Assembly (NCBI GenBank): GCA_022414725.1
Contig: CM039464.1
Span: 10,148,038 to 10,212,037 of the forward strand
Source of the DNA: Microglena sp. YARC
Taxonomy: Eukaryota; Chlorophyta; Chlorophyceae; Chlamydomonadales; Chlamydomonadaceae
DNA length: 64,000 nucleotides
Direction of reading: 5' to 3'
This document shows positions 163-25,091 of the stretch, piece after piece (position 1 is the stretch's first letter; each line of letters begins with the position of its first letter). A model generated the notes under the pieces. That model was not told the origin of the DNA. It worked only from the letters and a program-made list of their open reading frames with translations, and did not search any database. A program made the translations under genes and the position numbers.

Positions 163-256
163 TCCTTTTGGCTCTCATGTCATTGAGAAGGTGATGCTGC
201 GGCTTGAGAAGATGAGTGGTGACATGACGGAGGCAGAGTTTGAGACGTACAAGGAG
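163..256 (+). CDS. NOP9: NOP9-like exon (PUF repeat [11 protein letters not shown])
   Basis: The acceptor CCGCAG is followed by one base that completes a split codon, then 31 codons beginning [10 protein letters not shown] and ending FETYKE, then donor GTGAGT. The SHVIEKV core is a PUF helix. Three copies of this exon's 3' end follow in the intron. Confidence 0.82.
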
Positions 257-798
257 GTGAGTGGTAACTGGCGGTAGCTGCTTGTTGTAGATGTTGACAG
301 ATTGGATCTTGAGAAGATGAGTGGGGGCATGACTGAGGCGGAGTTTGAGACGTACAGGGAGGTGAGTGGTAACTGGCGGTAGCTGCTTGTTGTAGATGTT
401 GACAGATTGTAGCTCGAGAAGATGAGTGGGGACTTGACTATGGCAGAGTATGAGACATACAAGGAGGTGAGTGGTAGCTGGGGGTAGCTGGGGGTAACTG
501 CTTGTTCTAGATGTTGACAGATGGTAGCTTGAGAAAATGCATGGGGACATGACCGAGGCTTTCATCCCTGTTGCCTCAGCTGCTGACTGCTTTCAGCACA
601 GCCCTGTCTCCTCTTTAGTAGCTGTAGCTACCAGCCCTGTGTGTATGTTACAGTCTAGGGGTAGGCCAAATAGACTAAAGGGACATGCCCAACCATTACA
701 GGAAGTGCTAAAATGTATCCGCTGCTGATGCTGCTTGCTCCACCCATCATGCAATAAATAACAACTAACTAACTAACTAACTAACTAACGAACTAACG

Positions 799-832
<34 letters not shown>

Positions 833-3800
833 TTAAGCAACAGCAACTAACTAAGTAACCAAGTAACTAACTGACTCACTCACTCACTCACTCACTCACT
901 CACTCACAATTAACCCATCATGCACTAACCAATATCTTGCATCTGGTGTTGCCGCAGCATCTGACTGCTTTCTGCACAGCCCTGTGTGCTGACCTGTACA
1001 CCTACGCATGTGATCGGTACGCGACCCATGTGGCCAGGAGGTTAATCTGTTTGGCAGCTGGAAGGAATGTACTGCCCCCTACTGGAAAGAAAGTGGAACG
1101 AGGAGAAGGTGGAAAGGTACATTCCCGCCTAGTTGGATAAATAAATGAATAAATCAATAGTACGCCTTATTGCACCTTATTGTAACCACCGGACAGAAAG
1201 TGGAATGAGGAGTTGGTGGAAAGGTACATTCCCGCCTAGTTGGATAAATAAACATATAGTTCACCTTTTTACGCCTTATTATAACCACCGGACAGGAAGT
1301 GGCACAAGGAGTTGGTGGAAAGGTACATTCTCGCCTAGTTGGATAATTAAATAAATAAGTAAATCGTACACCTTATTACGCCTTATTATAACCACCGGAA
1401 GGAAAGTGGAACGAGGAGAAGGTGGAAAGGTACGTTCTCGCCTGGTTGGAAGAAATATATAAATATACAAATACATAAATAAATAAGTATACAAATATAT
1501 CGATAAATAAATATGCAAATATACAAATATACAAATACATAAATAAATAAGTATACAAATATATCGATAAATAAATATACAAATATATAAATAAATAACA
1601 CACCTTATTACGCCTTATTATGACCAACAGAAAGAAAGTGGAACGAGGAGAAGGTGGAAAGGTACAATCTCGCCTAGTCAGATAAATATATAAAAAATAG
1701 TTCGCCCTATTACGAGGCGTGAGGTTGAGGGGGCCAGCCCGGTATAATTGTACTGGGGCCATCCACTAAGACTAGTTGGATGTATGTTTTGTTTGTGGGG
1801 AATATACTTAGCTGCCTAATAAAATCTATGTTTTGTTTGTGGGGAATATACTTAGCTGCCTAATAAAATCTATGTTTTGTTTGTGGGGAATATGCTTAGC
1901 GGCCTAATCAAATATATATGTTTTGTTCGGGGGAGGGGGGGGGACTACCCATACCCATAACAACAAATAACGACTCAGTGTTAAACTCATCATGCAGAAG
2001 CTAACCCCTTAACCCTAAACCCACGCAGAAGCTAACCCCTAACCCCTAAACTCTAAACCCATGCAGAAGCTAAACCCTAAACCCATGCAGAACCTAAACC
2101 CTAAACCTAAACTCTAAACCCATGCATAATCAAAACCCTAAACCCTAAACCCATGCAGAAGCTCAAGGGCCCCACCAACCTTGGGAGCAAGGTGGGAGGA
2201 TCAGAATCTAAACCCTAAACCCTACACCCTAAACCCATGCAGAAGCTGAAGGGCCCCACCAACCTGGGGGGCAAGGTGGGAGGATCAGAATCTAAACCCT
2301 AAACACTCAACACTAAACACTAAACCCATGCAGAAGCTGAAGGGCCCCACCAACCTTGGGAGCAAGGTGGGAGGGTCAGATGGAGGAAAGGGAGCCGCGG
2401 CTGCGGCTTTCATGGGTGAACTTGAGGATGTGACCCCGGAAGCTAAATTTCCTGAGATCATTCAGGTACGCATGTGTGTCTGTTTGTATTATTTATCTGT
2501 ATGTATATTTGTTCGGGCATTATGTTTGAGGCCGTTGTCTGCGGGTGAATTAGTACCCTACACCTGCAGACAACACAACCAGGCCTCGTTAATACAAGCA
2601 CCTTATGCGCGTACCTGCTTCGTGCATTCTGATGCACTGCCTGATCTTGTTTGCAACTTAATGTATGTGTGTATGTTACAGCCCAGGGGTAGGCTAAATA
2701 GGCTTAAGGGACTTGCCCAAAAGGTAATCAGGTTGGGGTTCAGTTCATCAATCCTTTTTCTTTTTAGCCCTTCCTATCACTATCGGGGGAGTCCCTTCAG
2801 CCCATTTCGCATACCCCTGGACTGTAACATCCATACAATCAGATTCTTTGGGTGTGTGAATGTTACAGTCCAGGGGGTAACCAATTAGGCTAAGAGGACT
2901 TGTTCGTCCTTAAATGGTCAAGAAAATTATAAATAAAAAAATTGAAAAAAAAATTATTAATAAACACCAACGCCACCACCACACCATCATCACACCACCA
3001 CCACACTATCATCACACCACACCATCATCACACCACCACAACACCATCATCGCACCACCACCACACCACCATTACACCACCATCCATGTACCAACGGATT
3101 GTAATGGCTTCCTGCCCATTCATACATCCCCTCCCCCCTCTGCCCATTCGTACTATCATATTGCAGACCCTATCGGGAGTTGGTGGTTGGCCACAGCGCA
3201 AGCGAAAGGGATGGCTCGCCTCAACCTCAAGCCTCGTCATAGCACATTCATTTATGTTATTTATTGCAGACCCTCCTGGGCACAGTGTTGCATGAGGACC
3301 CTAAACCCTATTGCCTCCTGGACACAGTTTCGCATGATAACCCTAAACCATAAACCCTATTGCAGACCATCCTGGGCACAGTGTCGCATGAGGATCCTAA
3401 ACTCTGTACCCCAAACCCTATTGCAGACCATCCTGGACACAGTGTCGCATGAGGACCCTAAACCCTGTACCCTAAACTATATTGCAGACCCTCCTGGACA
3501 CAGTGTCGCATGAGGAACCCTAAACCATATACCCTAAACCCTGTTGCAGAACCACCTGGGCAAAGTGTCGCATGAGGACCCTAAACCCTATAGCAGACCT
3601 TCCTGGACACAGTGTCGCATGAGGACCATGGACCCTAAACCCTATAGCAGACCTTCCTGGACACAGTGTCGCATGAGGAGCCTAAACCCTATAGCAGACC
3701 TTCCTGGACACAGTGTCGCATGAGGACCATGGACCCTAAACCCTATTGCAGACCCTCCTGGACACAGTGTCACATGATAACTTTCAACTCTAAACCATAA

Positions 3801-6800
3801 ATTATATTGCAGGACCTTCTGGGCACAGTGTCGCATGAGAACCCTAAACACTAAACCCTAAATCCTATTGCAGACCCTCCTGGGCTCTGTGTTGCATGAG
3901 GACCCTAAATCCTATACCCTGAACCCTATTGCAGACCCTCCTGGACACAGTGTTGGATGAGGAGCCCTAAACCCTATACCTCAAACCATATTGCAGAAGC
4001 TCCTGGGCACAGTGTCGCACGAGGAACCCTAAACCCTATATCCCCAACCCTATTGCAGAACCAACTGGGCACAGTGTTGCATGAGGACCCTACACCCTAT
4101 TGCAGACCCTCCTGGACACAGTGTCACATGATAACCCTAAACTCTAAACCCTACACCCCTAAACCCTAAACTCATAACCCTAAACCCTAAACCCTACACC
4201 CTATTGCAGACCCTCCTGGACACAGTGTCACATGATAGCCCTAAACTCTAGACCCTAAACCCCACACCCTTTGCAGACCCTCCTGGACACAGTGTCATAT
4301 GATAACCCTTAACTTTAAACCCTAAACCCTAAACCCTACACCCTTTTGCAGACCCTCCTGGACACAGTGTCACATGAAAACATGCATGGCCCAACCATGC
4401 TGGAACTAGTGTATCACCAGAGTGCATCACCCTTCCTGCAAGCGATCATCAAGGCGATTTCAAGTGACAGGTGGGCAAGGTCTTAAGGTTGGGCAAGGTT
4501 TTAAGGTTAGGCATGATCCATCATTCCTACAAACAATCATCAAGGCAATTTCAAGTGACAGGTTGGCAAGGTTATACGGGCATGATGCATATGTACACCT
4601 TTTCTGCATGAAATGGTTAAGGCGATTTCAAGTAACAGGTGGGCAAGGTTGTAAGGTTGGGCATGATACATCAGTACACACCCTTTCTGGAAGCAATGGT
4701 CAAGGCGATTTCAAGTGACAGGTGGGCAATTCGAAGTGTCAGGTGGGCAAGGTTTTAAGGTTGGGCATGATACATCCATACACACACTCTTTCTGGAAGC
4801 AATGGTTAAGGCAATGTCAAGTGACTGGTGGAGAAGTTTTGAAGGTTGGGCATGATGCATCAGCATCATCTACATCATATGATCTGCCGGTTTCTATACA
4901 CACACCCATACGCCGGGCCCTGTATATCCACCTTTCTTGCAAGCGATGATCAAGACAATTTCAAGTGACAGGTGGGCAAGGCTCTCAGCTTGGGCATGAT
5001 ACACACATCACGTTACATCATACACATATGGGTCCCTATACAGACGCATATGTACACCCTTCCTGCAAGCAATCATCAAGGTTATTTCAAGTGACAGGTG
5101 GGCAAGGCTTTGAGATTTTGCATGATACATACTTAGGGGAAGGCAATATAATATACTGGTCCCTATACATACGTGTATACACCTTTTTCAGCTACCGATC
5201 ATCAAGGCGATTTCAAGTGACAGGTGGGCAAGGTTTTAAGGTTGGGCAAGGTGTTAAGGTAGGGCTTGATGCATCCGTACACACCCTTTCTGGAAGCAAT
5301 GGTCAAGGCAAGTCAAGGCGATTTCAAGTGTCAGGTGGGCAATTCGAATCGTCAGGTGGGCAAGGTTTTAAGGTAGGGCATGATGCATCCGTACACACAC
5401 ACTTTCTGCAAGCAATGTACAAGGCAATGTCAAGTGACAGGTGGGCAAGTTTTGAAGGTTGGGTATGATACCTCCACACACACACACACTTTCTGCAAGC
5501 GATCATCAAGGCAATGTCAAGTGACCGGTGGGCAAGTTGTTAAGGTTGGGCAAGGGGTTAAGCTTGGGTATGATACATCCACACACACACACCCTTTCTG
5601 GAAGCAATCATCAAGGCAATTTCAACTGATAGGTGCGCGAGGTTTAGGGTTGGGCATGATACATCCATACACACACACTTTCTGCAAGCAGTTTCTATGA
5701 TATCACATGGTATCATACTCTCCTTTTGTCTACATCATATGATATGCCGGTCCCTAAACAAATGCATGAAAACCCTTTCAGCTAGCGATGATCAAGGCGA
5801 TCTCAAGTGACAGGTGTGTTACTGGAAACGAAGTTGACATGTGTGTAAGTGACATGTGTGTAAGTGACAGGTGTGTTCAAGTGACAGGTGTGTTAATGGA
5901 AACGAAGTTGACATGTGTGTAAGTGACAGGTGTGTTCAAGTGACAGGTGTGTTAATGGAAACGAAGTTGACATGTGTGTAAGTGACATGTGTGTAAGCGA
6001 CAGGTGTGTTCAAGTGACAGGTGTGTTAATGGAAACGAAGTTGACATGTGTGTAAGTGACAGGTGTGTTCAAGTGACAGGTGTGTTAATGGAAACGAAGT
6101 TGACATGTGTGTAAGTGACATGTGTGTAAGTGACAGGTGTGTTCAAGTGACAGGTGTGTTAATGGAAACGAAGTTGACATGTGTGTAAGTGACAGGTGTG
6201 TTCAAGTGACAGGTGTGTTAATGGAAACGAAGTTGACATGTGTGTAAGTGACAGGTGTGTTCAAGTGACAGGCGTGTTAATGGAAACGAAGTTGACATGT
6301 GTGTAAGTGACAGGTGTGTTCAAGTGACAGGTGTGTTAATGGAAACGAAGTTGACATGTGTGTAAGTGACAGGTGTGTTCAAGTGACAGGTGTGTTAATG
6401 GAAACGAAGTTGACATGTTTGTAAGTGACAGGTGTGTTCAAGTGACAGGTGTGTAAGTGACAGGTGCGAAACTGGAAACGAAGCCCCCGAAACCCACCAA
6501 CACTCCAAATCCACCCAACATACCCCTCCGACACTCCAAATCCACCCAACATACCCCCCCAACACCCCAAATCCACACAACAGCCCCCTCCAACACTCCA
6601 AATCCACCCAGCATTCCCCTCCAACACTCCAAATCCACCCATCACCCCCCTCCAAATCCAACACCCATATAGCAACCCCCTCCAAATCCAACACCCATCC
6701 CCATCTTGCAGGCCCTCCCTGCTCCGATTCACACCGTGTGTGCTTGGGGCCACTGTTTTCAGTGACAAGCCCAAGGCCGGGAAGGTGGTTGAGTTTGTTG

Positions 6801-9800
6801 ATGTAGCTGCCTTCCATGAGATGGCGAGAGACCCAACTGCCAGTCACGTGGTGGAAGCTGTGGTGCAGGTGTGTGTCACCACCCTTATCACCACCACTTC
6901 CACCACCACCCCTATCACTACCACCACTACCGCCCCTATCCCAAATTTGTGATGTTTCTCCCAGAATTCTCAGAATTCTGTTAATTTCACGCACAATTCG
7001 AGGTACAAATGACAACCTGCTACCTGTTTCGAATTTTGTGCTCTAATGTCGGAATCCTACAATTGACATTCCTGGGTTGGACTCCTGCTATAACAGCAAT
7101 TCAGAGGAGGATTTGAAATTGACAGTCGTAGGTTGTCGTACCGCGACTTTTTCAGGCCAAATTTGTGATAATTCTCCCAGAATTCTCAGAATTCTGTTAA
7201 TGAATGATGTTTTTTCATGCACAATTCGAGGTTCAAATTACAACCTGCTACCTGTTTCGAATTTTTAGTCCGAAACATCCGCTGAACTGCTATAACAATT
7301 ACTCACGCTTTTATGTTGGACTGCGGTAATTTTTGCAAGGTTCTATAAGCGGGCGATTCGGCGTCTATCTGTGAAATTGACAGTAAAATGTTGCACATCG
7401 TACCAGGGAATTTTTCCGTTTTATTTGCTGGTTGCTACTTATGACCCCGTTTCGGCCCATATTGCTGTTATACAAATAAATAAATAATGTTTCGCCCTTA
7501 ATGGCCCTTCGAAGCTATAAAAGCTGTAAAAGGCTGTAGTACCGCTGTCCCTGGAGGAGGCCTAAAACCAAAAGGGTAGACAGAAAAAAACCACTTTCAG
7601 ATTTGAACAAAAAATCCCTGCATCAGACCTCGACTTTTTCAGGCTATATGTGCGACAACTCTCCCAGGATTTCCTCCAAGGTCCACACAAAAAAGGAAAA
7701 GCAGTGGAGGTGTGAGAGTTTGCAAAATAGAGTCTATGAAGGGAGTTTAAAAAAAGGAGTTTACAGAAGGGGAGTCCATAAAAGGGAGTTTAAAAGGGGG
7801 AGTTTAAACAAACAAAGGGTTGTGGAGGCTTATTGTTTTCAGTTCAGAAAGGTGTTCTTTTTATAGCTTTATGGGTTTAGGCCTCCTCAAGGGACAGTGT
7901 CCTAATAGCTTTTTATTGCTAATAGTGGCCATTTAAAGCCATTGAGGGCCATTTAAGGCCATTTAGGGCCATCGATTTAGGGGGTTTTGATAGCTTTATG
8001 GGTTTAGGCCTCCTCCAAGGATAGCATCCTTATAGTTTTTAGGGCTATTTAGGGCCATAGATTTGGGTTATTTATAGCAGCAATTGGGGTCAATTGGGGT
8101 CAAACGTAGCGTAAGCTATATATAGCAGGGGGGGGGGGATCTCTGGTGGAGGCATAATGTACAATGTGTGGATGTGTATTTATTTTGTGTGGATGCCGTT
8201 ACAGGGGTCTGCCTGTCTGTATGTTGTTTCGACAGGAGCACCTCAGGACCCGCACACCTTTCTGAGGCTTGCGTTGCACGGCTCAGTGTGTTGTGTTCAG
8301 CCTATTTGAATGTAAGTTGTTTCAGGCTACATAGGCAAGGTCTTATCATCACAAGCACCTGAGGAAGCGCACCCCTCTGTTAGGCTCGTGTTGCACTGCT
8401 CACCTTTGTGTTCAGCCTATTTCGATGTATGTTGTTTCAGGCTACACAGGCAAGGTCTTATCAACACAAGCACCTGAGGAAGCGCACCCCGCTGTTAGGC
8501 TCGTGTTGCACTGCTCACCTTTGTGTTCAGCCTATTTGAATGTATGTTGTTTCAGGCAACATAGGCAAGGTCTTATCAACATCAGCTCCTCAGGAAGCGC
8601 ACCCCTCTGTTCGGCTAGTGGTGCACTGCTCACCTTTGTGTTCAGCCTATTTGAATGTAAGTTGTTTCAGGCTACATGGGCAAGGTCTTATCAACACATG
8701 CACCTCAGGACCCACACATCTCTGTTTGGCTCGTGCTGCACTGCTCATCATTTGGTGTTATCAGCCTATTTGAATGTATGTTGTTTCAGGCAACATAGGC
8801 AAGGTCTTATCAACACAAGCGCCTGAGGACCCACACATCTTTGTTAGGCTCGCGTTGCACTGCTCACCATTTTGTGTTCAGCCTATTTGAATGTATGTTG
8901 TTTCAGGCTACACAGGCAAGGTCTTATCAACACAAGCACCTGAGGAAGCGCACCTCTCTGTTTCGCTCCCGTTGCACTGCTAACCGTGTTGTGTTCAGCC
9001 TATTTGAATGTAAGTTGTTTCAGGCAACATAGGCAAGGTCTTATCATCACAAGCACCTGAGGAAGCGCACCCCTCTGTTAGGCTCGTGTTGCACTGCTCA
9101 CCTTTGTGTTCAGCCTATTCGACTGTATGTTGTTTCAGGCAACATAGGCAAGGTCTTATCAACACAAGCACCTGAGGAAGCGCACCTCTCTGTTCCGCTC
9201 CCGTTGCACTGCTAACCGTGTCGTGTTCAGCCTATTTGAATGCATTTGTTTCACGCAACGTTGGCAAGGTCTTATCAACATCAGCTCCTCAGGAACCGAA
9301 CATCTCTGTTCGGCTCGTGGTGCACTGCTCACTGTGTTGTGTGCAGTCTATTTGAATACATTTGTTTCAGGCAACATAGGCAAGGTATTATTAACACAAA
9401 CAAGCACCTGAGGAAGCGCACCTCTCAGTTAAGCACGCGTTGCACTGCTCATCGTGTTGTGTTCAGCCTATTCGACTGCATGTTGTTTCAGGCAACATAG
9501 GCAAGGTCTTATCAACACAAGCACCTGAGGAAGCGCACCCCTCTGTTAGGCTCGTGTTGCACTGCTCACCTTTGTGTTCAGCCTATTCGACTGTATGTTG
9601 TTTCAGGCTACATAGGCAAGGTCTTATCAACACAAGCACCTGAGGAAGCGCACCTCTCTGTTCCGCTCCCGTTGCACTGCTAACTGTGTTGTGTTCAGCC
9701 TATTTGAATGCATTTGTTTCACGCAACGTTGGCTAGGTCTTATCAACATCAGCTCCTCAGCAACCGAACATCTCTGTTCGGCTCGTGTTGCACTGCTCAC

Positions 9801-12800: not shown

Positions 12801-15783
12801 TACTGAGCATCCTTCTGCACGGTTTATTTATTCAGAATTAGCAGACTGTAGCAACCAAGACATCATTTCAGGTGAGCTTCCCTATACAATATTTTGTAGG
12901 ATAGCGTATGACGAATCACCTGATTAAGCATTCCTCCTCACTACTGAGCATCCCTGTGCAATATATCATAGGATATCATATGACATACCGCCCGATAATC
13001 TTGGGGACCAGTACGATGTAGACATCCCTAATTATGTAGCATTAGCTGGCGGCCCTACTGTTCAACCCTAAACCCTGAACGATGGACCCTGGATTCTGAA
13101 CCCTGAACCCTGAAACCTGAACCCCGAATGCAGATTAAGACCATGTTTTAGGAAGTGCATGGATAGATCAGAAGCGTCAAATAGCATAAAGTAGCATGTC
13201 AGTGTATCTATCGTGGCCACCCCGACCCTCCCCGACACCAACCCACAACAACTCACACCCACGAAAACTCGCACTCACACCAACCCACAACAACACCAAC
13301 ACAGCAACCCACAACAACACCAACACACCAACACACACCAACACCAGCACACCAACACACACCAACACCAGCACACCAACACCAGCACACACCACCCCAC
13401 ACCCACAGATTAAGGCTATGTTTGAGGAACTAGACCCACAGATCGGAAAGCTGCTGGTGATGCGTCGTAGCGGTGTAGTGGCGGCCCTACTGGCCTCATG
13501 TGGGCGTCTCAGCGCGTGTCAAAAAGATGTGTGCGCAAGTCTGTCAACCGCTCTGTCCACTCAAGCACATTGGTCCAGTCTGGCAACTGGAGGCGAAGCA
13601 GGTAAGATGGCATTCCTTCCACTAGCCCCTTTTGGTAGACTAGAGTGGGCTATGTGATGGTGTAGTGGCCGCCTGTAGGTGTCTCAACGTGCGTCAGAAA
13701 GATGTGTGCGCAAGTCTGTCAACCGCACTGTCCTCTCAAGCACATTGGTCCAGTCTGGCAACTGGAGGCGAATCAGGTAAGATGGCATTCCTTCTACTAG
13801 CCCCTTTTGGTAGACTAGAGTGGGCTATGTGATGGTGTAGTGGCGACCTGTGGGTGTCTCAACGCGTGTCAGAAAGATGTATGCGCAAGTCCGTTAACCG
13901 CACTGTCCTCTCAAGCACAGTGGTCCAGTCTGGCAACTGGAGGCGAAGCAGGTAAGATGGCATTCCTTCCACTAGCCCCTTTTGGTAGACTAGAGTGGGC
14001 TATGTGATGGTGTAGTGGCCGCCTGTAGGTGTCTCAACGTGCGTCAGAAAGATGTGTGCGCAAGTCCGTCAACCGCACTGTCCTCTCAAGCACATTGGTC
14101 CAGTCTGGCAACTGGAGGTGAAGCAGGTAAGATGGCAAGAGGCTTTCAATCAGCCTCTCCTGGATTAAGATTGTGTTGCAAAACACATCACTTTTAAATG
14201 TACAGAATATGTGATACGACACGCCACCTGTATATATAATATAATGTGTATAATGGCGTTCTTTCATTCAGCCTCTCCTGGATATATATCTCGATGCAAA
14301 ACACATCACCATATATAAATGAAAACCCAGGGGGGTATAAAGCGGGGCCCGTATATACAGTTGACCCGCTACAATAAAAAATTAAGTATGTATGTATGTT
14401 ACAGTCCAGGGGTAGGCCAAATAGGGACTTGCCCAACTTTGAGAGGAAGGGCTCAAAAGAAAAGGCATTAATGAACTGAACCCCAAACAATTGTTTTACC
14501 AACGGGGACCCTGATAGAGATAGCAGCAATGGCTAAATGGTGGTGATTCATAGATAATGATACCAAATGGCTAAATGGTGGTGATCCATAGATTGTGATG
14601 CCAAATGGCTAAATAGTAGCGATCCATAGATTGTGATGCCAAATGGCGAAGGGGTGCTGATCCATAGATTGTGATACCAAATGGCTAAATGGGGGCGATC
14701 CATAGATTGTGATGCCAAACACATCATCTGTATATATTTGGTATGTGATTCATTACATGTCCCCTTAATATATATGATATGTGATACAGCACACATCATC
14801 TTTAAATCATATATAATGTGTGATACCTTACACATCACCTTTATATTAGATATGATCTGTGATTCCACAAGCATACACATCATGTTAACCATTCACCCCC
14901 ATTGCAGTGCTCTGACCCCCACTAACTAACAAAATAAATGGTACGCCTAATTACGAGGCGTACGGTTGGCAGTATGTTTACGGGGGGGCAGCCCGTTTTC
15001 TTGGCAGTTTTTTTTTACGACGACGCGTCGCCACTGCGTCTCTATTCTGTCGTCGCAAATGCTTGCACTGGGGCCCACTAACTAACTAACTAAATAAATA
15101 AATGGTACGCCTAATGACAAGGCATACGGTTGGCAGTATGTTAACAGGGGGCAGCCCGTTTGCTTGGCAGTTTTATTTTTACGACGATGCGTCTCCACTG
15201 CGTTGCCATTCCGTCGTCGCAAATGCTTTCACTGTGGCCAACCACCAATAGTTATCCCCAGCTTTCTGCAGGTCCTGTTGTGTAGCAGAAGGTGCAACGC
15301 AAGCCTGATTTCAGAATTGTGGCATAGCACGGTATATCCGTACATGGTATGATGTAAAGGGGGCAGTGCGTTGCACTGGGATCCCATCGAGTCGTACAAT
15401 TTGCAACGCGTCGCACACACACATAAACACACACACACACACAAAACCGACGATCCCCTTTATTACCCTCCTTACCAGGTCTGGAAGCCGTCCTTGCTCC
15501 AGCCCTCCTGTGCCTAGATGCAGAGGCGCTGCTTGGTAAAAACGAGGCCCCACCAGAGGGGGGGCACTACGGGTTGGGCCCAGGCCATCGGTTGTCCTCC
15601 TTGGGGGCCCTCATCCTCATCAATGTGCTCAAGTTTGGTCAGGTAAGTTGGGTTGGCGTGTATGTATGTGTATCTGTGTGTGTTTGTGATCTAAGTGTGT
15701 GTATGTGTACTTGCACGTGTGCACGTATGTTTTTGAATGCATGTGCGTAAGTTTTTATGTGCGTAAGTTTTTTGTGTGCGACA

Positions 15784-15818
<35 letters not shown>

Positions 15819-15950
15819 CTCACCCCTCCCTACTCTACAGGGCTCCTGCCCCTCCCCCCTCCCCCCCCGCTCCTCCCCTCACCCCCACTCCCCTGCTTAC
15901 TGTACAGGGCTCCTGCTGCTCCTTCATGGACAGAGTGGCTGCTCTTTGGT

Positions 15951-15989
<39 letters not shown>

Positions 15990-18900
15990 TATACCATCTC
16001 CTCCCCCTCACCCCTGATTACTCTACAGGGCTCCTGCCGCTCCTCCTCCCCCCCACCACCACTACCCCCTCCCTCCCCTCATCCCCAACCTAGCCTCCCC
16101 CTCACGCCCCCCCCCCCCCCCCCCCCCCAACACACACACACACACACACACATCCCCAACCTTGCCTCCCCTCACGCCTCCCCACACAGATATCCCCAAC
16201 CTTGCCTCCCCCTCGCGCCCCCCCCCCCCCTCACCCCCCTCACCCACTCTCTTACTCTACAGGGCTCCTGCCGCTCCTTCACAGACAGCGTTGCTGCTCT
16301 TGGTCGTCACGACGCAGTCAGAGTGGGGCGTGATCCTTCAGGTAGCCGGGTGCTGGAGACTTTCTTGGAGGGGAGTGCCCCTATCAAGGTGAGTACTTCA
16401 GTTGCTGCTACTGGTGCTGCCACAAGTTCATCGGGAGTGGGGTAGGATCCTCAAGTTAGAGTAGTGGGTACTTAAGTTAGAGTGGGGTGTGATCCTTCAG
16501 GTAGCCGGGTGCTGGAGACTTTCTTGGAGGGGAGCGCCCCTATCAAGGTGTGACCTTTGGTTTTTGCTTGTGTACTGGTTTGACTTACTATCGGATGCTA
16601 TGAAGTATGATATGAATTCATACCGTACACTATAGAATATGTTATGAAGTGTGGTATGAATTTGTATCGCACGCAATGAAATATGATATGAAGTATGATA
16701 TGAATTCATACCGTACACTATAAAGTGTGTTATGAAGTGTGGTATGAATTTGTACCGTACACTATAGAATGTGTTATGAATTCATACCATCCGCTACTAA
16801 GCATGATGTGAATTCATACCGTACGCTACAAGGTATAATATGAAGTATGATATGAACTCATACTGTACATTATTAAGGGCGCCTGGAGGCGCGTCCCGAA
16901 TGAAATGATTCGGATCCTTAATTCAATGTATTTTAATTAATTTAATTGAATTGTATTTAATGTTGTGCTATTTTAATTCGATGTATTCCTTTCCATTTAA
17001 TTTAATTAACGTGATTTGAATGCATGTAATTGCTTTAAATTGTATCAATTCGAATTGGATTAAATTCGAAGAGCGCCTGGAGGCTTTAAATTAATTGAAT
17101 TCCAATGGATCGATTGATGATTTAGCATTGTTAACTACAGGTGACGAAGGTGACGAAAAAGAGAGTTGTTGGAGGGTTGTTGATTTTTAAGCAGTATTGA
17201 ACGTTTCTGTAATGTAATGAAATGCATGTATGTAGATTGCCTTTTTTAAAGAATTTGATGCAAGAAAAATGAGGCCAATCAGGTGTCTGGCTGATTTTAC
17301 GGAATTTGTTCAAGGTAATGCATGTTTCGGCCCAGCCCAGACGTGAACGGTATATCCCGTCCTGCTGAACGGGCTTTTGGCCAGCGGCAGGTGGCGTGGC
17401 TTGCCACTGCCCCCGCCCGGTGGCCCCCGCCCCCGTCCCCGCCCCTGCCCCCGGACCCTGCCCCCGCCCGGTGGCCACCGCCCCTGCCTCACGCACGGCC
17501 CTGAGGTGGGGTCCGTGGGCTAATTATAGCACAAGTGCCCGAGGGGAATGTTTAATCCATTGTGATGCTTACATGTTTCGCCTCCAATTTTTGACGACAA
17601 TTCTGCTCCCAAACCTATGTTTGCGCACATGTTGAAGTGGTTCAAATTTGAAATGTTAGCTCAAAACACCCTGAAATCAAATTGTTAACCGTTAATTGTA
17701 GCTATTTGGCCCAACCTGAGCTCCTTTTCATGAATTGCGATGCGCATATGTGCTCTGGTCAGAATTTGTCCGGTATAAATAAGTCTTATAATTCATCAAA
17801 AATAAAGAATGTTCAATTTTTTGATGTTTTTCATAAAACCTGAAAATTTGGTTTGTGACACACGGACGGACGAGCGGACATTTTAATGGGGCTAATCCCT
17901 CTTCAAAAAATCTGGAGATTTTTTTCATTCGGGTACAAAGTATGATATGAATTCATACTGTAAATTACGAAGTATGATATGAATTCATACTGTACATTAC
18001 GAAGTATGATATGAAATCATACTGTACATTACGTAGTATGATATGAATTCATACTGTACATTACGAAGTATGATATGAACTCATACTGTACATTACGAAG
18101 TATGAGATGAATTTATACTGTACATTACAAAGTATGATATGAATTCATACTGTACATTGCGAAGTATGATATGAATTCATACTGTGCATTACTAAGTATG
18201 AGATGAATCCATACCATACCCTATGAAGTATGATATGAATTACGATATGAAGTACCGGTTCCTGACCAATGTTGACCAGTCCGTCTGCTTCATCCCACAC
18301 AACTCTTGCACCACAATTCCTGCGCAGGTGAAGTACCGGTTCCTGACCAATCTGGTGGGCGGTTTCGGTGATGTGGCTCTCACCGCTGCTGGCAGCTTCG
18401 TGATGGAAAGATGCTACTCATGGGCGGTACGTTGTTTCTTTGAGCTACTTCGCAACAATATTGTATGTTCTAAGGTCACTTAGTTTGAATTCTTTTGCAG
18501 ACAGGACTGGAAACAAACAGCTCTGCTTTGATCTTTATGTTTTCTTGATATATACTATCACATAAATATATTTGGCTACCTCTGGACTGTAAAAATACAC
18601 ACATATTGATACAGACACATATTGGTACAAACCGTTGTGTTTTGTTGACACATAATGTACACATATACGCACTATCATAAATATATATAGGGAGAGGCAT
18701 CGATCTATATAGAGATAGATCTATATAAATCTATATATATATATATATATATATATGTATAGATCTATATTGGCCAAGTTGGATTTTTGAAAAGTCGGCA
18801 TAGGGCACCTTACAAAAATCAAAATCTGGTTTTACAATTATGGCATAGGGCACCATATCATTTTGCAGGCGCTTTGACTGGATTTTCCGGTGTCTATCTG

Positions 18901-21900
18901 ATGTAACTGCATATGTTGTAGATATACACAATAGATATATTTGCTATATATAGATCTATATAGATCTATATTTTTGGGCAATATAGATCTATTTGCCGCC
19001 CCCTATATATATATATATATGATTTTTTTTTGCCTCCCCCTATACTATAAAAATACACATATAAAGATACATACTGCTATGTTATGCTCTATTGGTACAT
19101 ACTGTTATGTTATGTTATGTTGCTACATACTACCGGTATACATATACACATACTGCGTTACTGATTTTCTTCTTATGTTCTCTTGATACATAGTTGTTGT
19201 TTGTATCAAGAGCACCTTGGTTCTCCTTGTTATAGATCTTGCCAAGGGGCTTATCAGATTTTCTAACAAGGAGACTCTATTTCTAGCTTTCAAAGTATTT
19301 TACAGTGCAGACGCTTTATGGAGACCCAACAGGGCTCAATACCAGGGGATTAGCAATTTCCCTGGTTCTCCTTGTTATAGATCTTGCCAAGGGGATTCTT
19401 CAGACTCCCTGACAAGGAGAGTCTTTTATGGTGACTACTGCTAGCTCCGGCTTCTGCAGTGGTGTCCTTAACTTCACGTCCCGAGAGTGGCACATTACTC
19501 GGATGTACCAATTTCAATTTTAATTGTTGCTCACCTCTGATTTGCTCCTTGTGTTTTGTCAATACATGTATGCTGACTCCCTCGCTTTCAAACAACCACA
19601 GGACTGTTGTCCAACACTCATACTCACCCCTGATTTGCTTTGTATTCATTTATAAACATAGGTTGCCTCCGTCACAAAAAAACAGGAATGCAGTCCAACA
19701 CTCCTACTCACCCCTGATCTTAGGGCGTACTAGCTTACCCAGAGTCATAGGCCGGTACCTGGAGTACCGCCCTGGGGGGCGGTACTTGAAATATAATAGA
19801 GAATTTGCCGCTTGTTTTTTTGGTACGCAGGCAGCCGCCTTCATATTCAAACAATCACAGGACTGTAGTCCAACATTCCTAATCACCTCTGATGTGCTCC
19901 TTATGTTTTGTTGGTACACATAGGCTGCGTTATTTTTATTCAAACAACAACATGGCTGTAATGCAACATTCTTACTGACCTCTGATTTGCCTCATGTTTT
20001 CTTGGTACACGTATGCTTCCTCCTCCACATTCAAACAGCCACAGGACTGTAGTCCAACATTCTTACTGACCTCTGATTTGCCTCATGTTTTCTTGCTACA
20101 CGTATGCTGCCTCCTCCACATTCAAACAACCACAAGACTACACTCTTACCACAAATGAATCCCATTACACCACCCTGTTCATAAAAACAACACAACTGAA
20201 AAAGACAACAACAAAAAACGATGCACAAGACAACTAAGCAAGACAACAACAAACCCCCCAAAAGCGTAGCATAGCATAGCAAAACAAAGTAAGACGATGC
20301 ACAAGACAACCAAAACAACACAACCAAAACAACACAACCAGCATAACAAAACACAACTCAACAAAATCCACTCCATCCCTCCACCCCCAGGACCCAACTC
20401 TGATGAAAAATATTGTGCAAGAATTGTGCGCATGCTCAGAGAAGTTGGAGTCCTTGAATTGGAGGCCCACTCAACACAACACAACAAAATCCACTCCACC
20501 CAACCCCCAACCCCCTCCACCTCTCAACCACCAGGACCCAACTCTGAAGAAAAATAGTGTGCAAGAATTGTGTGCATGCTCAAAGAAGTTGGAGTCCTTG
20601 AATTGGAGGCCCACACAAGACAGCACAACAAAATCCACTCCACCCAACCCCCAACCCCCTCCACCCCCAGGACCCAACTCTGAAGGAAAAGATTGTGCAA
20701 GAGTTGTGTGCACGCTCGAAGGATTTGGAGTCCTTACATTGGAGGCCTACACAACACAACACAGCCAACAAAACAGCCAACACAAAACATCAAAATCCAC
20801 TTTACCCAACCCCCAACCCCTTCCACCTCCAGGACCCAACTCTGAAGGAAAAGATTGTGCAAGAGTTGTGTGCACGCTCGAAGGAGTTGGAGTCCTTATA
20901 TTGGGGACCTAACCTGTTGCAGACCGTTGGGTCTGAGGCGTACAACAGAGACCCGGTACAGTGGAGGTAGGTGCCTAATTAAGACTGGTTTCGGTTTTGG
21001 GGTACATGTAGAATTTTCGTGATAGCTCCTTACAGAAATCCAATGCAGTGGAGGTGGGGGCATAATTAAGACTGTTTCTGGTTTTGGGTTACGTGTAGCA
21101 GCTTCGTGATAGCTCTCTACAAAGACCCGGTGCAGTGGAGGTAAGTGCCCAATTAAATATATTTCTGGTTTTGGGGTACATGTAGCAGCTTCGTCATAGC
21201 TCTCTACTGAGACCAAGTACAGTGGAGGTAGGTGCCTAATTAAGACTGTTTCTGGTTTTGGGGTACGTGAAGCAGCTTTGGAAAGCTCTCTACATAGACC
21301 CAGTACCGAGGAAGTAGGTGCCTAATTAAGGCTGTTTCCGGTTTTGGGGTACGTGTAGCAGCCTGATAGCAGCTCCCTACTGAGATAAAGTAAAGTGGGG
21401 TTGTTGATGTTTGTGTCACCAACCCCGACTCCGACACCAAATCCTGCACCAACGCCAACTCCTGCACCAACACAAACACAGACACAAGCACCAACACTGA
21501 CACCAACACCAACTCCTGCACCAGCACCAACCCCGACACCAACACCAACACGGACACAAGCACCAACACTGACACCAACACCAACTCCTGCACCAACACC
21601 AACTCCTGCACCAGCACCAACACCAACTGCCGCACCAACACCAACTCCAGCACCAACACTGACACCAATACCACCAATACCTGCAGGAAGCACATGGATT
21701 CCTCGACCAAGACCATGGCTGCTTACACGCAGCTCTTTGGGTCTGCACCAGCCGCAGTTAAACACCAACACCAAATCCGTCACCAACACCAAATCCTGCC
21801 CCAACCCCGACACCAACATCAACTCCTGCACCAGCACCAACCCCGACACCAACACCAACTCCTGCACCTGCACCAACTCCAGCACCAACACTGGCACCAA

Positions 21901-24827
21901 TACCAAGATTAAATCTAACACCAACATGAACTCCAGCACCAATACTGAAACCAACACCAATACCAATACCACCAATACCTGCAGGAAGCACATGGATTCC
22001 TCGACTAAGACCACCGCTGCTTACACGCAGCTATTTGGGTCTGCATCTGCTGCAGTTAACCACCAACACCAAATCCATCACCAGCACCAACACCAACTTC
22101 TGCACTGACACCAACACCAACACCAACTCCTGCACCAGCACCAACCCCGACACCAACACCAACTCCTGCACCAGCACCAACACCAACTGCCGCACCAACA
22201 CCAACTCCAGCACCAACACTGGCACCAATACCAGAATTAAATCTAACACCAACATCAACTCCAGCACCTATACTGAAACCAACACCAATACCAATACCAC
22301 CAACTTGCAAAAAGCACATGGATTTCTCGACCAAGACCACCGCTGCTTACACGCAGCTATTAGGGTCTGCACCTGCTGCAGTTAACCACCAACACCAAAT
22401 CCATCACCAACACCAACACCAACTTCTGCACCAACACCAACCCCGACACCAACACCAACTCCTGCACCAGCACCAACCCCGACACCAACACCAACACAGA
22501 CACAAGCACCAACACTGACACCAACACCAACTCCTGCACCAACACCAACTCCTGCACCAGCACCAACACCAACTGCCGCACCAACACCAACTCCAGCACC
22601 AACACTGACACCAATACCACCAATACCTGCAGGAAGCACATGGATTCCTCGACCAAGACCATGGCTGCTTACACGCAGCTCTTTGGGTCTGCACCAGCCG
22701 CAGTTAAACACCAACACCAAATCCGTCACCAACACCAAATCCTGCCCCAACCCCGACACCAACATCAACTCCTGCACCAGCACCAACCCCCACACCAACA
22801 CCAACTCCTGCACCTGCACCAACACCAACTCCAGCACCAACACTGGCGCCAATACCAAAATTAAATATAACACCAACATGAACTCCAGCACCAATACTGA
22901 AACCAACACCAATACCAATACCACCAATACCTGCAGGAAGCACATGGATTCCTCGACTAAGACCACCGCTGCTTACACGCAGCTATTTGGGTCTGCATCT
23001 GCTGCAGTTAACCACCAACACCAAATCCATCACCAACACCAACACCAACTTCTGCACTGACACCAACACCAACACCAACACCAACTCCTGCACCAGCACC
23101 AACCCCGACACCAACACCAACTCCTGCACCAGCACCAACACCAACTGCCGCACCAACACCAACTCCAGCACCAACACTGGCACCAATACCAGAATTAAAT
23201 CTAACACCAACATCAACTCCAGCACCTATACTGAAACCAACACCAATACCAATACCACCAACTAGCAAAAAGCACATGGATTCCTAGACCAAGACCACCG
23301 CTGCTTACACGCAGCTATTTGGGTCTGCACCTGCTGCAGTTAACCACCAACACCAAATCCATCACCAACACCAACACCAACTTCTGCACCAACACCAACC
23401 CCGACACCAACACCAACTCCTGCACCAGCACCAACCCCGACACCAACACCAACACAGACACAAGCACCAACACTGACACCAACACCAACTCCTGCACCAA
23501 CACCAACTCCTGCACCAGCACCAACCCCGACACCAACACCAACTCCTGCACCAGCACCAACACCAACTGCCGCACCAACACCAACTCCAGCACCAACACT
23601 GGCACCAATACCAGAATTAAATCTAACACCAACATCAACTCCAGCACCTATACTGAAACCAACACCAATACCAATACCACCAACTTGCAAAAAGCACATG
23701 GATTCCTCGACCAAGACCACCGCTGCTTACACGCAGCTATTTGGGTCTGCATCTGCTGCAGTTAACCACCAACACCAAATCCATCACCAGCACCAACACC
23801 AACTTCTGCACTGACACCAACACCAACACCAACACCAACTCCTGCACCAGCACCAACCCCGACACCAACACCAACTCCTGCACCAGCACCAACACCAACT
23901 GCCGCACCAACACCAACACCAACTCCAGCACCAACACTGGCACCAATACCAGAATTAAATCTAACACCAACATCAGCTCCAGCACCTATACTGAAACCAA
24001 CACCAATACCAATACCACCAACTTGCAAAAAGCACATGGATTCCTCGACCAAGACCATTGCTGCTTACACTCAGCTCTTTGGATCTGCACCTGCCGCAGT
24101 TAACCACCAACACCGAATCCGTCACCAACACCAAATCCTGCCTCAACCCCAGCCCCGACACTAACACCAACTCCTGCACCAACACCAACTGCCGCACCAA
24201 CACCAACTCCAGCACCAACGCTAAATACCAAAAATAAATATAATACCAACATCAACTCCAGCACCAATACTGAAACCAATACCAATACCACCAACTTGCA
24301 GGAAGCACATGGATTCCTCGACCAAGACCATGGCTGCTTACACGCAGCTCTTTGGATCTGCACCAACCGCCGGCAGCAGTGGACCAGGTGGAAAGAACGC
24401 TGCCAAGACGTCAAACACGGGGGCTGCAGGTTGCAAGGTTGCTGCCAAGACGTCGAATACGGGGGCTGCAGGTGGCATGGACGCTGCCAAGGCATCTAGC
24501 ACAATGGCCACTGGGCAGAAGCCAGAAGAGGTTATCGACGAGAAAAAGAAGCTGAAAAGAGAGCTGGTCGAGGGCGATGGGGATGAGGATGGGGACGGGG
24601 ATGGGGAGAGCAACGATAGGAAGAAGAAGAAAAAGAAGAAGGCAGCTGAGGAGGTGGCTGACTTGGAAGGGCAAGATGCTGGGTTGAAGGTAGAACAAGT
24701 AGCTGAGGGGGGTGATGCTGAAGAGGAAGTAGCTGAAGATGTAGCTGAGGGTGACGAAGATGCACATGCCAAGGCAGCATTAAGGAAGGACAAGAAGCAG
24801 AAGAAGAAGACAGGAAAGAAGTGGTAA
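163..24827 (+). CDS. NOP9: NOP9/APUM23-like PUF-repeat nucleolar protein, 12 exons, 5' end outside window
   Basis: Twelve GT-AG exons (163-256, 958-1116, 2334-2465, 4352-4470, 6712-6868, 11081-11212, 13409-13601, 15479-15642, 16263-16388, 18328-18426, 20833-20966, 24302-24827) join with matching phases at every junction into about 677 residues ending in a stop. PUF-type helices are readable in order: [67 protein letters not shown] and [12 protein letters not shown] conserved tail (WGPNLLQ, DPVQWR) and a Lys/Glu-rich C-terminus typical of nucleolar proteins follow. In yeast and plants NOP9/APUM23 binds pre-18S rRNA during 40S assembly, and the same role is inferred here. The first exon starts with one base completing a split codon, so upstream exons exist. 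Exons make up only about 8% of the span. I see no TGTAA polyadenylation signal in the first ~200 bp after the stop. PUM-type proteins are the alternative, but the repeat spacing and C-terminal block favour NOP9. Confidence 0.82.
257..957 (+). repeat. Intron 1: donor-side exon copies, CTAA and CACT microsatellites
   Basis: Three further copies of the exon end plus donor (CTTGAGAAGATGAGTGG through GTGAGTGG) start near 308, 413 and 528, about 105-115 bp apart. Near 570-612 there is a diverged copy of the downstream junction (TTGCCTCAG then CTGACTGCTTTC). A fragment of the dispersed GTCCAGGGGTAGGCC repeat lies at about 640-690. Tetranucleotide arrays CTAA (765-835) and CACT (870-905) fill the rest. 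Confidence 0.8.
958..1116 (+). CDS. NOP9: NOP9-like exon ([17 protein letters not shown])
   Basis: Phase 0 at both ends, 53 codons. It holds a PUF repeat with YATHVARRL and the linker [10 protein letters not shown] that follows this repeat in NOP9 relatives. It ends ERGEGGK and then donor GTACAT. Confidence 0.83.
1117..2333 (+). repeat. Intron 2: donor-side and acceptor-side junction copies with CCCTAAA units
   Basis: Four copies of the exon end and donor (GGTGGAAAG then GTACATTC) lie near 1190-1250, 1290-1345, 1390-1450 and 1625-1690, separated by A/T-rich ATACAAAT units. Three 44-bp units (TATGTTTTGTTTGTGGGG) occupy 1785-1920. From about 1990 to 2333 there are seven decoy acceptors (CCCATGCAG then AAGCT) spaced by CCCTAAA repeats. 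The last two of these extend well into the exon sequence (AAGGGCCCCACCAACC). Confidence 0.8.
2334..2465 (+). CDS. NOP9: NOP9-like exon (linker region [11 protein letters not shown])
   Basis: Phase 0 at both ends, 44 codons. It encodes a Gly/Ala-rich, probably disordered linker and ends FPEIIQ before donor GTACGC. Its start is the last of a series of near-identical ATGCAG acceptors. I chose this one because only this copy continues into an open exon followed by a donor. Confidence 0.72.
2466..4351 (+). repeat. Intron 3: about 18 decoy acceptor copies in CCCTAAA repeats
   Basis: The first part (2640-2900) carries two opposed fragments of the dispersed GTCCAGGGGTAGGCC repeat, followed by CAC/CAT triplets (2965-3085). 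From about 3265 to 4350 roughly 18 copies of the next exon start (TTGCAG, then ACCCTCCTGGACACAGTGT) occur every 45-75 bp, separated by CCCTAAA and CCCTATA units. Many retain a usable AG and pyrimidine context. Confidence 0.82.
4352..4470 (+). CDS. NOP9: NOP9-like exon (PUF repeat [13 protein letters not shown])
   Basis: Starts in phase 0 (TLLDTVSHE) and encodes the PUF helix [19 protein letters not shown]. It ends two bases into an Arg codon before donor GTGGGC. The next exon supplies the missing G, which confirms the intron between them. Confidence 0.83.
4471..6711 (+). repeat. Intron 4: donor-side junction array, then two minisatellites
   Basis: About twelve copies of the exon end plus donor (TTTCAAGTGACAG then GTGGGCAAGG) run from about 4500 to 5690, with CTGCAAGCGATCATCAAGGC preceding many of them. 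At 5800-6475 a higher-order minisatellite based on AAGTGACAGGTGTGTT and GGAAACGAAGTTGACATG continues the same TGACAGGT core. At 6490-6700 a 19-22-bp CTCCAAATCCACCCA array leads to the acceptor. Confidence 0.82.
6712..6868 (+). CDS. NOP9: NOP9-like exon ([13 protein letters not shown])
   Basis: The first base completes the Arg codon split by the upstream intron, and 52 codons follow. The end [16 protein letters not shown] is a clear PUF repeat of NOP9 type. Donor GTGTGT follows in phase 0. Confidence 0.86.
6869..11080 (+). repeat. Intron 5: dispersed repeats, 117-bp satellite, four exon-start copies
   Basis: At 6945-7045 and 7160-7270 there are two copies of a TTGTGATAATTCTCCCAGAATTC repeat (one with slight changes). 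At 7500-8130 lie inverted and tandem copies of a GTTTAGGCCTCCTC repeat. An 18-copy, ~117-bp satellite fills 8325-10385. Decoy copies of the next exon start at 10501, 10642, 10789 and 10936, before the real exon. Confidence 0.8.
8325..10385 (+). repeat. 117-bp tandem satellite, about 18 copies
   Basis: The unit is marked by TTTCAGGCAACATAGGC, AAGGTCTTATCAACACAAGC and GTTGCACTGCTCACC. Each unit carries an acceptor-like TTTCAG. Unlike the neighbouring arrays, the sequence after it does not match any exon of the gene that I can find, and its frames contain stops. Confidence 0.85.
11081..11212 (+). CDS. NOP9: NOP9-like exon ([14 protein letters not shown])
   Basis: Phase 0 at both ends, 44 codons: [19 protein letters not shown], then [17 protein letters not shown], ending TKTTPQ. 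It is a textbook NOP9 PUF repeat. Only this copy of the array continues past HPMAN into FVVQ and a donor; the four upstream copies break off into CAAACACAAACACC. Confidence 0.87.
11213..13408 (+). repeat. Intron 6: about 17 donor-side copies, then acceptor-side copy and CCAACA repeats
   Basis: Units of about 90-108 bp carry the exon end (GCAACTAAGACAACCCCTCAG) plus the first intron bases and the spacer TTTATTTATTTAGCATTAGC. Units nearest the exon have lost the donor (CCTCCAATGAGCACC). Those from about 12200 keep it (CCTCAGGTGTGCATCC). A diverged acceptor copy (GCAGATTAAGACCATG) lies at 13130-13160. CCAACACA repeats fill 13255-13395. Confidence 0.83.
13409..13601 (+). CDS. NOP9: NOP9-like exon ([16 protein letters not shown])
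   Basis: Starts in phase 0 after CCCACAG. Its 64 codons plus one base encode [16 protein letters not shown], then [14 protein letters not shown], a divergent PUF helix, and end SSLATGGEA before donor GTAAGA. The split Gly codon is completed by the next exon. Confidence 0.82.
13602..15478 (+). repeat. Intron 7: three long donor-side copies and dispersed repeats
   Basis: Three copies (about 178 bp each, ending near 13780, 13955 and 14130) repeat the 3' half of the exon from GTGTAGTGG through GGCGAAGCAG and donor GTAAGATGG. A dispersed GTCCAGGGGTAGGCC element is at 14390-14530. Five ~50-bp units with CCATAGATTGTGATGCC lie at 14535-14720. A two-copy repeat (GTACGCCTAATTACGAGGCG) spans 14933-15245, and its relative is at 1690-1760. 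Confidence 0.78.
15479..15642 (+). CDS. NOP9: NOP9-like exon ([18 protein letters not shown])
   Basis: Two bases complete the Gly codon, and 54 codons follow. The sequence reads [12 protein letters not shown], then a Gly-rich loop, then [17 protein letters not shown] and donor GTAAGT. The helix-loop-helix pattern fits a PUF repeat with a long loop, and phases match both neighbours. Confidence 0.82.
15643..16262 (+). repeat. Intron 8: three decoy acceptor copies and poly-C tracts
   Basis: TG- and CA-rich microsatellites are followed by three truncated copies of the next exon start (CTCTACAGGGCTCCTGC) near 15833, 15901 and 16024. The second extends about 45 bp into exon sequence before dissolving into a long poly-C run (about 15951-15989). 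A second C run lies at about 16110-16128. Confidence 0.82.
16263..16388 (+). CDS. NOP9: NOP9-like exon ([16 protein letters not shown])
   Basis: Phase 0 at both ends, 42 codons beginning [14 protein letters not shown]. It contains [12 protein letters not shown], a strong PUF signature, and ends SAPIK before donor GTGAGT. One donor-side copy follows at 16480-16550. Confidence 0.87.
16389..18327 (+). repeat. Intron 9: donor copy, palindromic ATGATATGAATTCATAC satellite with 1-kb insert, acceptor copy
   Basis: One donor-side copy lies at 16480-16550. Units built on GTATGATATGAATTCATAC, near-palindromic and ~30 bp, run at 16590-16870 and resume at 17935-18245. The segment between (16876-17934) is unrelated, low in repeats and ends in a dispersed CTGGAGATTTTTTTCATTCGGG repeat also seen at 40905-41050. 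A partial copy of the next exon start (GAAGTACCGGTTCCTGACC) is at 18248-18275. Confidence 0.8.
18328..18426 (+). CDS. NOP9: NOP9-like exon ([14 protein letters not shown])
   Basis: Phase 0 at both ends, 33 codons: [18 protein letters not shown], then [15 protein letters not shown], the last well-formed PUF repeat. Donor GTACGT follows. Confidence 0.86.
18427..20832 (+). repeat. Intron 10: AT-rich DNA, truncated LINE, ACAGGACTGTAGTCC units, three acceptor copies
   Basis: TATAGATCTATA-type repeats lie at 18700-19015. A truncated LINE 3' end is annotated separately. About six 75-100-bp units containing AACCACAGGACTGTAGTCC and CCTCTGATTTGC occupy 19540-20130. Three decoy copies of the next exon start (CAGGACCCAACTCTGA onward, about 80 bp of exon each) lie near 20390, 20530 and 20670. 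Confidence 0.8.
19283..19525 (+). mobile_element. 5'-truncated LINE 3' end, relative of the 26.5-36.2 kb element
   Basis: The first ~40 bp (TTTCAAAGTATTTTACAGTG, CAGACGCTTTATGGA) match 35901-35940 of the large LINE. The last ~90 bp (CTAGCTCCGGCTTC, GGTGTCCTTAACTTCACGTC) match its 3' UTR near 36120-36160, and both end in a TTTCAATTT tail. The middle differs, so this is a related subfamily rather than the same copy. It lies in the sense orientation inside the NOP9-like gene. Confidence 0.75.
20833..20966 (+). CDS. NOP9: NOP9-like exon ([10 protein letters not shown] ... WGPNLLQ ... DPVQW)
   Basis: Starts in phase 0 with [20 protein letters not shown], continues [20 protein letters not shown], and ends two bases into an Arg codon before donor GTAGGT. 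WGPNLLQ followed by DPxxW is the conserved C-terminal block of NOP9 proteins. Confidence 0.87.
20967..24301 (+). repeat. Intron 11: donor-side copies, then ACACCAAC minisatellite with eight acceptor copies
   Basis: About five donor-side copies (GACCCGGTGCAGTGGAG then GTAAGTGCC) occupy 21025-21395. From 21420 to 24300 an ACACCAACTCCTGCACC array is interrupted by eight copies of the last exon start (GCAGGAAGCACATGGATTCC through CAGCTCTTTGGGTCTGC), near 21680, 21980, 22305, 22630, 22935, 23265, 23690 and 24025. Some copies carry a mutated acceptor (GCAAAAAGCACATGG). A higher-order period of about 300-420 bp is visible. Confidence 0.85.
24302..24827 (+). CDS. NOP9: NOP9-like terminal exon with Lys/Glu-rich tail
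   Basis: The first base completes the Arg codon. [19 protein letters not shown] closes the conserved region. The remainder is low complexity: two [11 protein letters not shown] repeats, an acidic [12 protein letters not shown] stretch, a run of seven lysines and a final [11 protein letters not shown] before the stop. Such tails commonly carry nucleolar localisation signals. A tandem duplication within the exon produced the two AAKTSNTG units. Confidence 0.85.

Positions 24828-25052: not shown

Positions 25053-25091
<39 letters not shown>

Follow-up and report, generated by a model that had tools for sequence, protein, structure and literature searches.

Introns of a NOP9-like gene from a chlamydomonad alga carry tandem copies of their own splice junctions

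Introduction

Minisatellites occur in introns, and introner-type elements consist of related sequence dispersed over many introns. The latter are named in the introduction of PMC4974935, and that paper also describes tandem duplications that supply splice-site sequence: in the intron gain of Rogers and Hellsten an exonic AGGT is duplicated in tandem and gives rise to an intron, and fission yeasts carry 24-bp exonic tandem duplications. The same text reports that one tandem duplication across an intron-exon boundary of a potato RdRp gene made one new intron (PMC4974935).

We analyzed a window of 64,000 nucleotides of DNA from Microglena sp. YARC, in which a NOP9-like gene carries repeated copies of its own splice junctions. 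In both potato RdRp and NOP9, duplication across a splice border leaves part of a former exon inside the intron; the difference is that potato shows one duplication and a new intron (PMC4974935), whereas in NOP9 15-16 of 22 borders are involved, many of them in multiple copies, and it is the introns that grow. Existing donors or acceptors were copied here, unlike the exonic AGGT of the Rogers and Hellsten route (PMC4974935). The repeats resemble intronic minisatellites in being head-to-tail, tens to hundreds of bp long, diverged and re-amplified in blocks, but differ from them in that the units, at most borders of a single gene, hold an exon edge and its splice site. Given the published potato duplication (PMC4974935), the statement of the initial annotation that no described process does this was too strong. 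In the titles and abstract openings of the papers listed, our literature search recognized no junction-copy arrays at this scale, nor did passages of PMC11228838, PMC11247165 and PMC8226300 describe any.

The host gene

The host gene is a chlamydomonad-like NOP9, the gene for a ribosome-assembly protein. We read the exon coordinates from the sequence and then fixed them by script. The 12 exons in the window, all on the plus strand, form an open frame of 677 residues: exons 1 (163..256), 2 (958..1116), 3 (2334..2465), 4 (4352..4470), 5 (6712..6868), 6 (11081..11212), 7 (13409..13601), 8 (15479..15642), 9 (16263..16388), 10 (18328..18426), 11 (20833..20966) and 12 to the stop codon (24302..24827). 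The start and 5' part of the gene lie upstream of the window, and the gene model P0013 has further N-terminal residues. The 11 introns are all GT-AG, measure 620-4212 bp and total 22.6 kb. The ~60 nt before each of the 11 acceptors are rich in C+A (0.60-0.97), with a T fraction of 0-0.29 and no T-rich tract.

Joining the outermost copies of each junction gives a match to the NOP9 protein family. The joined exons match PUF_NOP9 (PF22493) with an E-value of 2.5e-62, above the Pfam cutoff, indicating a NOP9-like PUF repeat domain (NOP9/PUM23 membership), and the PDB match is to Pumilio homolog 23 (5wzg, E 2.6e-47). Among the matches listed were 24 homologues, and those named by organism are green algae except for one fish. 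These matches bear out the earlier identification of the gene. We take eight of the named homologues, with 40-51% identity, to be chlamydomonadalean, going by their names. An alignment with 11 homologues was continuous through the exon joins, its gaps falling for the most part where conservation is weak, for instance in the exon 2-3 region and the tail. Two gene models, P0001 (100% identity over 48% of the query) and P0013 (98% over 26%), probably come from the same species as the window.

Copied junctions

We scanned the 22 borders, each taken as up to 60 exon nt and 40 intron nt, at E<=0.01. A rule of at least 10 exon and at least 6 intron bases gave 83 copies; a looser rule that required at least 3 intron bases and located each junction exactly raised the count to 92 copied junctions (53 donor and 39 acceptor), in line with the approximately 90 decoys previously proposed to surround the 12 exons. 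These lie at 15 of the 22 borders and in all 11 introns, and the repeat units combine exonic with intronic sequence in register with the splice site. Acceptor 9 is a 16th border, with an exon-only copy of 23 nt that lacks AG (18248..18270). Donor copies occur in introns 1, 2, 4, 6, 7, 9 and 11 and acceptor copies in introns 1, 2, 3, 5, 6, 8, 9, 10 and 11, exactly the borders that had been listed; the scan at E<=0.01 found no copies for donors 3, 5, 8 and 10 or acceptors 4 and 7, and exons 5 and 8 had no intronic copies on either side. Head-to-tail arrays of diverged copies stand at 12 borders. The description in the initial annotation holds, with the qualification that acceptors 1, 6 and 9 and donor 9 have one extra copy each and are therefore duplications, not arrays.

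All of these features lie on the plus strand. The donor-1 array (257..559) has a 105-bp unit with 55 exon nt, two junction copies (last exon bases 361 and 466) and a truncated copy at 527-559, and is followed by the single acceptor-1 copy (569..607; 28 exon nt plus AG). The donor-2 array (1117..1697) holds four decoy donors in units of ~107 bp with 36 exon nt. Two decoy acceptors were located (2159, 2243) in the acceptor-2 array (1991..2333), and 17 (from 18 matches, with 30 exon nt) in the acceptor-3 array (3264..4351); both have a telomere-like CCCTAAA spacer. The donor-4 array (4471..6466) has 22 decoy donors with up to 43 exon nt; nine of them (5876-6457) are short matches of 15-21 nt, with E-values of 0.002-0.006, which are units of a secondary 59/133-bp array that begins at ~5803. 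The acceptor-5 array (10463..11080) has four copies (three AG, one GG) in a 147-bp unit with up to 91 exon nt, and the donor-6 array (11213..12883) has 17 copies, seven with GT and ten with AT. Acceptor 6 has one copy (13131..13154; 21 exon nt plus AG). The donor-7 array (13602..14137; three decoy donors, 175-bp unit) carries up to 114 exon nt, and three decoy acceptors lie amid C-rich repeats before exon 9 (acceptor 8, 15812..16262). The single donor-9 copy (16489..16568) reaches 73 exon nt in the whole-exon scan described below. Three decoy acceptors with up to 79 exon nt form the acceptor-10 array (20377..20832; 144-bp unit), four decoy donors with 22 exon nt the donor-11 array (20967..21362; 87-bp unit), and eight copies (four AG, four AA) with up to 69 exon nt, embedded in CACCAA-type minisatellites, the acceptor-11 array (21417..24301). 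The stretches from each border to its farthest copy sum, by our own arithmetic, to about half of the total intron length.

Other repeats share the introns. The CCCTAAA repeats of introns 2 (2006-2233), 3 (3341-4340) and 6 (13066-13079) each lie upstream of acceptor copies; 21 of 21 matches to the 14-mer, with one mismatch allowed, were on the plus strand, and 0.02 were expected. Intron 5 contains a 115-bp array of ~18 copies (8237-10392) with an acceptor-like TTTCAG and no exon match at E<=0.001. A search of the whole window against Rfam at gathering scores gave no match.

We compared whole exons with the exon-masked first 25 kb at E<=0.001. Each of the 60 matches was on the same strand and in the adjacent intron, with none on the other strand and none elsewhere; for exon edges this differs from the dispersal of introner-type elements, which resemble the present case in that repeated sequence affects introns. 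The matches cover 766 of 2035 exon bases (our own sum), and 59 of them touch the border within 5 nt, the other being the truncated copy of the donor-1 array. In the looser junction scan, a single exon match of 16 nt fell on the minus strand of a non-adjacent intron (18296-18311, E 0.002); we took it as chance.

By fit to the protein family, the outermost copy, i.e. the first donor or the last acceptor, is the real exon edge: it is favored in 78 of the 100 amino-acid differences that could be decided. Among 104 distinct amino-acid changes it fits the homologues better in 78, worse in 22 and equally in three, and one had too little family data to score. The decoys resemble real splice sites, and the cell would need to disregard them: 77 of 92 keep GT or AG, and 35 match the real site at all nine bases compared. 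Splicing at a decoy would nevertheless cause a stop or frameshift in 90 of 92 cases, the two others being the acceptor-8 copy at 16029 and the acceptor-10 copy at 20671. P0001 includes the start of exon 12 twice, and P0013 continues from exon 3 into an acceptor-3 copy, where it ends; both models are predictions that followed decoys and took decoy sequence as coding.

Proposed origin

The copies are local, on the same strand, contiguous with the border and neutral-looking, and the outermost copy is under protein constraint. We propose, with a probability of roughly two in three, that tandem duplications arose within the gene one after another and that selection against exon damage filtered them. 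Head-to-tail duplications of ~60-400 bp would keep arising in the NOP9 transcription unit and would then be amplified again, with slippage or unequal exchange as the probable mechanism. Duplications confined to an exon would normally break the protein and be lost, those confined to an intron would be neutral, and those that straddle a border would be neutral as long as splicing still used the outermost copy. The introns would thereby gradually fill with diverging copies of their own junctions. The outermost site may be chosen since it would be the sole place where a complete exon is recognized (exon definition). Exon 12 has in its tail the only two arrays that are wholly exonic; their units, 42 bp (24385-24491) and 6 bp (24576-24607), are multiples of three, which we count in favor of the exon-damage filter.

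Placement of the duplications

The initial annotation had the arrays seeded at exon borders. Under such targeting, R-loops, co-transcriptional break repair or the border sequence itself would start the duplications preferentially at the junctions, an origin that we consider possible but rather improbable. We evaluated coverage by self-comparison, keeping 513 plus-strand matches and setting 12 minus-strand matches aside, and scored a 20-nt interval as duplicated when it lay inside a match of at least 30 nt at E<=1e-5. By this stricter rule 14 of 22 borders were covered. On the intron side, 13-14 of 22 were covered at a distance of 10-60 nt and 15-17 at 80-300 nt; inside the exon, coverage fell from 14 of 22 at 10 nt to 11 at 20 nt and 6 at 40 nt. 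Coverage without a peak at the border, flat or slightly rising into the intron and falling in the exon, argues for filtering and not for targeting, and lends good support to the earlier suggestion that selection limits spread to the intron side. On the side of targeting, with intronic families counted once, 25.7% of intron sites (2090/8123) were duplicated versus the 14 of 22 borders (binomial P 2e-4), microsatellite sites being excluded from the intron count and kept in the border count.

A test on TRF output alone found that 8 of 23 arrays with a period of at least 40 bp straddle a border; 3.9 were expected with collapsed introns (P 0.026), and there was no excess against the 14.6, 11.6 and 7.9 expected with introns of 200, 300 and 500 bp. 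Because TRF breaks up or overlooks donor 4, acceptors 8, 10 and 11 and the single copies, we repeated the test with a hand-made list of unit families of at least 60 bp. On this list 16 of 21 families straddle a border and five do not, again in favor of targeted seeding, although the hand selection, with unit lengths typed from nearest-copy spacing, is a weakness and the list omits the 5803-6466 array (derived from donor 4) and families with units below 60 bp. Our placement script, in which units are capped at the model intron length, expected 14.5 straddling families with 198-bp introns (P 0.31), 10.3 with 343-bp introns (P 0.008), 7.5 with 500-bp introns (P 0.0001), 5.0 with 788-bp introns and 3.9 with collapsed lengths. 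When the four single-copy borders were dropped, 12 of 17 families straddled, with P 0.47 at 198 bp and 0.029 at 343 bp. Borders or families were treated as independent in the coverage and family-placement tests.

The border excess thus depends on intron length at the time of seeding and vanishes if that was ~200 bp. In six core-Reinhardtinia algae the median intron measures 198-343 bp (PMC8226300), a range whose lower end removes the excess, and the mean intron of Limnomonas is 720-823 bp, depending on annotation method (PMC11228838). If the introns were long, the observed 16 of 21 against 10.3 or 3.9 expected counts against uniform seeding. Seeding at the borders is therefore not established: the excess is present for introns above ~200-300 bp and absent at ~200 bp. 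Arrays with a period of at least 60 bp also make up 48% of the gene (11905/24665 bp) versus 3% of the rest of the window (1341/39173 bp), which would fit targeted seeding; the other 39 kb is a poor control, not matched to the gene, because it holds a LINE-like frame, a ~4 kb tandem segment and histone genes. Should targeting apply, junctions would be preferred birthplaces of arrays through a transcription- or splicing-linked process, introns in much of the genome would expand outward from their own borders, and the spliceosome would need whole-exon recognition to pass over dozens of near-perfect decoys in each transcript; we regard this wider claim as equally doubtful.

Divergence of the copies

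The junction copies look neutral. Their exon parts changed at 303 of 3125 positions (9.7%) and their intron parts at 275 of 2490 (11.0%), with no clear difference over 15 borders (Wilcoxon P 0.68). Changes in the splice dinucleotides number 15 of 184, ten at donor 6, four at acceptor 11 and one at acceptor 5, and at donor 6 and acceptor 11 many copies probably inherited them. By codon position (1, 2 and 3), the distinct changes number 52, 49 and 75 over 265, 265 and 264 covered sites. Synonymous changes make up 64 of them, nonsynonymous changes 104 and stops eight; the synonymous share is 36%, versus 26% expected for random changes. Counted per copy, the changes are 80/1169, 74/1169 and 176/1154, richer at the third position. 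We read the codon-position pattern as neutral copies combined with silent change in the constrained real exon; the third-position and synonymous excess could alternatively reflect constraint on the copies.

Such constraint would be expected if the decoys were functional, serving as alternative exon ends, in splicing regulation or as a sink for splicing factors. The retention of GT or AG in most decoys and of the whole nine-base site in over a third of them, and the third-position excess at the copy level, are compatible with function. Donor dinucleotide columns also changed somewhat less than their neighbors (1 of 14 array-columns versus 55 of 154 flanking columns, one-sided P 0.023), hinting at retention; acceptor dinucleotides were not specially kept (4 of 14 versus 32 of 153, P 0.84). 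The copy-level tests treat related copies as independent, and their P values are therefore too small. Divergence of ~10% would leave most dinucleotides intact anyway, the exon parts are not clearly better kept than the intron parts, and nearly all decoys would bring a stop or frameshift. We therefore consider functional decoys quite unlikely.

Other explanations

We consider it very unlikely that tandem duplication of exon segments gave rise to the introns themselves, as in the intron gain of Rogers. Border-crossing duplications can create introns (PMC4974935), but the copies at the two sides of a NOP9 intron stem from two different exons, and the simple model needs one segment. Least probable of all is an assembly artefact or mis-expanded repeats: homopolymers of 37-38 C or G at 15952-15989, 25053-25089 and 44822-44859 suggest difficult sequence, and the agreement of P0001 and P0013 is not an independent check since they probably come from the same assembly, but the units differ between introns, the exon matches keep strand and neighborhood, and the copies differ by ~10% from the real junction, in line with the case that the initial annotation made against assembly stutter.

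In GT/AC introns, the ends of one intron pair better than the ends of different introns. The NOP9 introns are somewhat enriched in G/T at their 5' ends and strongly enriched in C/A at their 3' ends. We rejected pairing of the intron ends, as mean duplex energy was -58.8 for own ends versus -58.8 for crossed ends; with shuffled 3' ends as the reference, a z below -2 was reached in 2 of 11 introns.

The rest of the window

At ~40-47 kb there are putative exons similar to P0025, a DUF7918 protein, with 73% identity across 56% of the query part (E 6.7e-20). A 118-aa query gave no homologue and a longer one gave a single protein, P0025; searches with these exons gave no Pfam match and either none or only weak matches in PDB (E 0.48 or more). 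In this putative gene one donor border has a single 21-nt copy (E 4.7e-5) ~1.6 kb downstream, and three copies of an acceptor-like border lie at 46144-46517; the junction-like copies lie within 42994-43014 and 46144-46657. The putative second gene model suggests that the junction-copy pattern extends beyond NOP9.

The window also contains a LINE-like frame in which endonuclease and reverse transcriptase domains are present (29092-31590) and a ~4 kb segment in tandem at 97-99% identity (52337-60832), in which a 279-aa frame has no convincing Pfam match. Histone H2A usually carries an N-terminal tail; in the divergent pair of H2B (minus strand) and H2A (plus strand) at 61905-62814, the H2A frame is without the usual one.

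Significance

The junction copies mislead annotation, as both gene models that match this gene carry decoy sequence. NOP9 is also a natural experiment on splice-site choice, with true site and decoys within one transcript; because 35 of 92 decoys are identical to the true site over nine bases and 90 of 92 would be ruinous, the context that marks the true site is testable. Finally, serial duplication filtered by selection suggests a simple route of intron growth, in which duplications at borders are tolerated and those in exons mostly are not.
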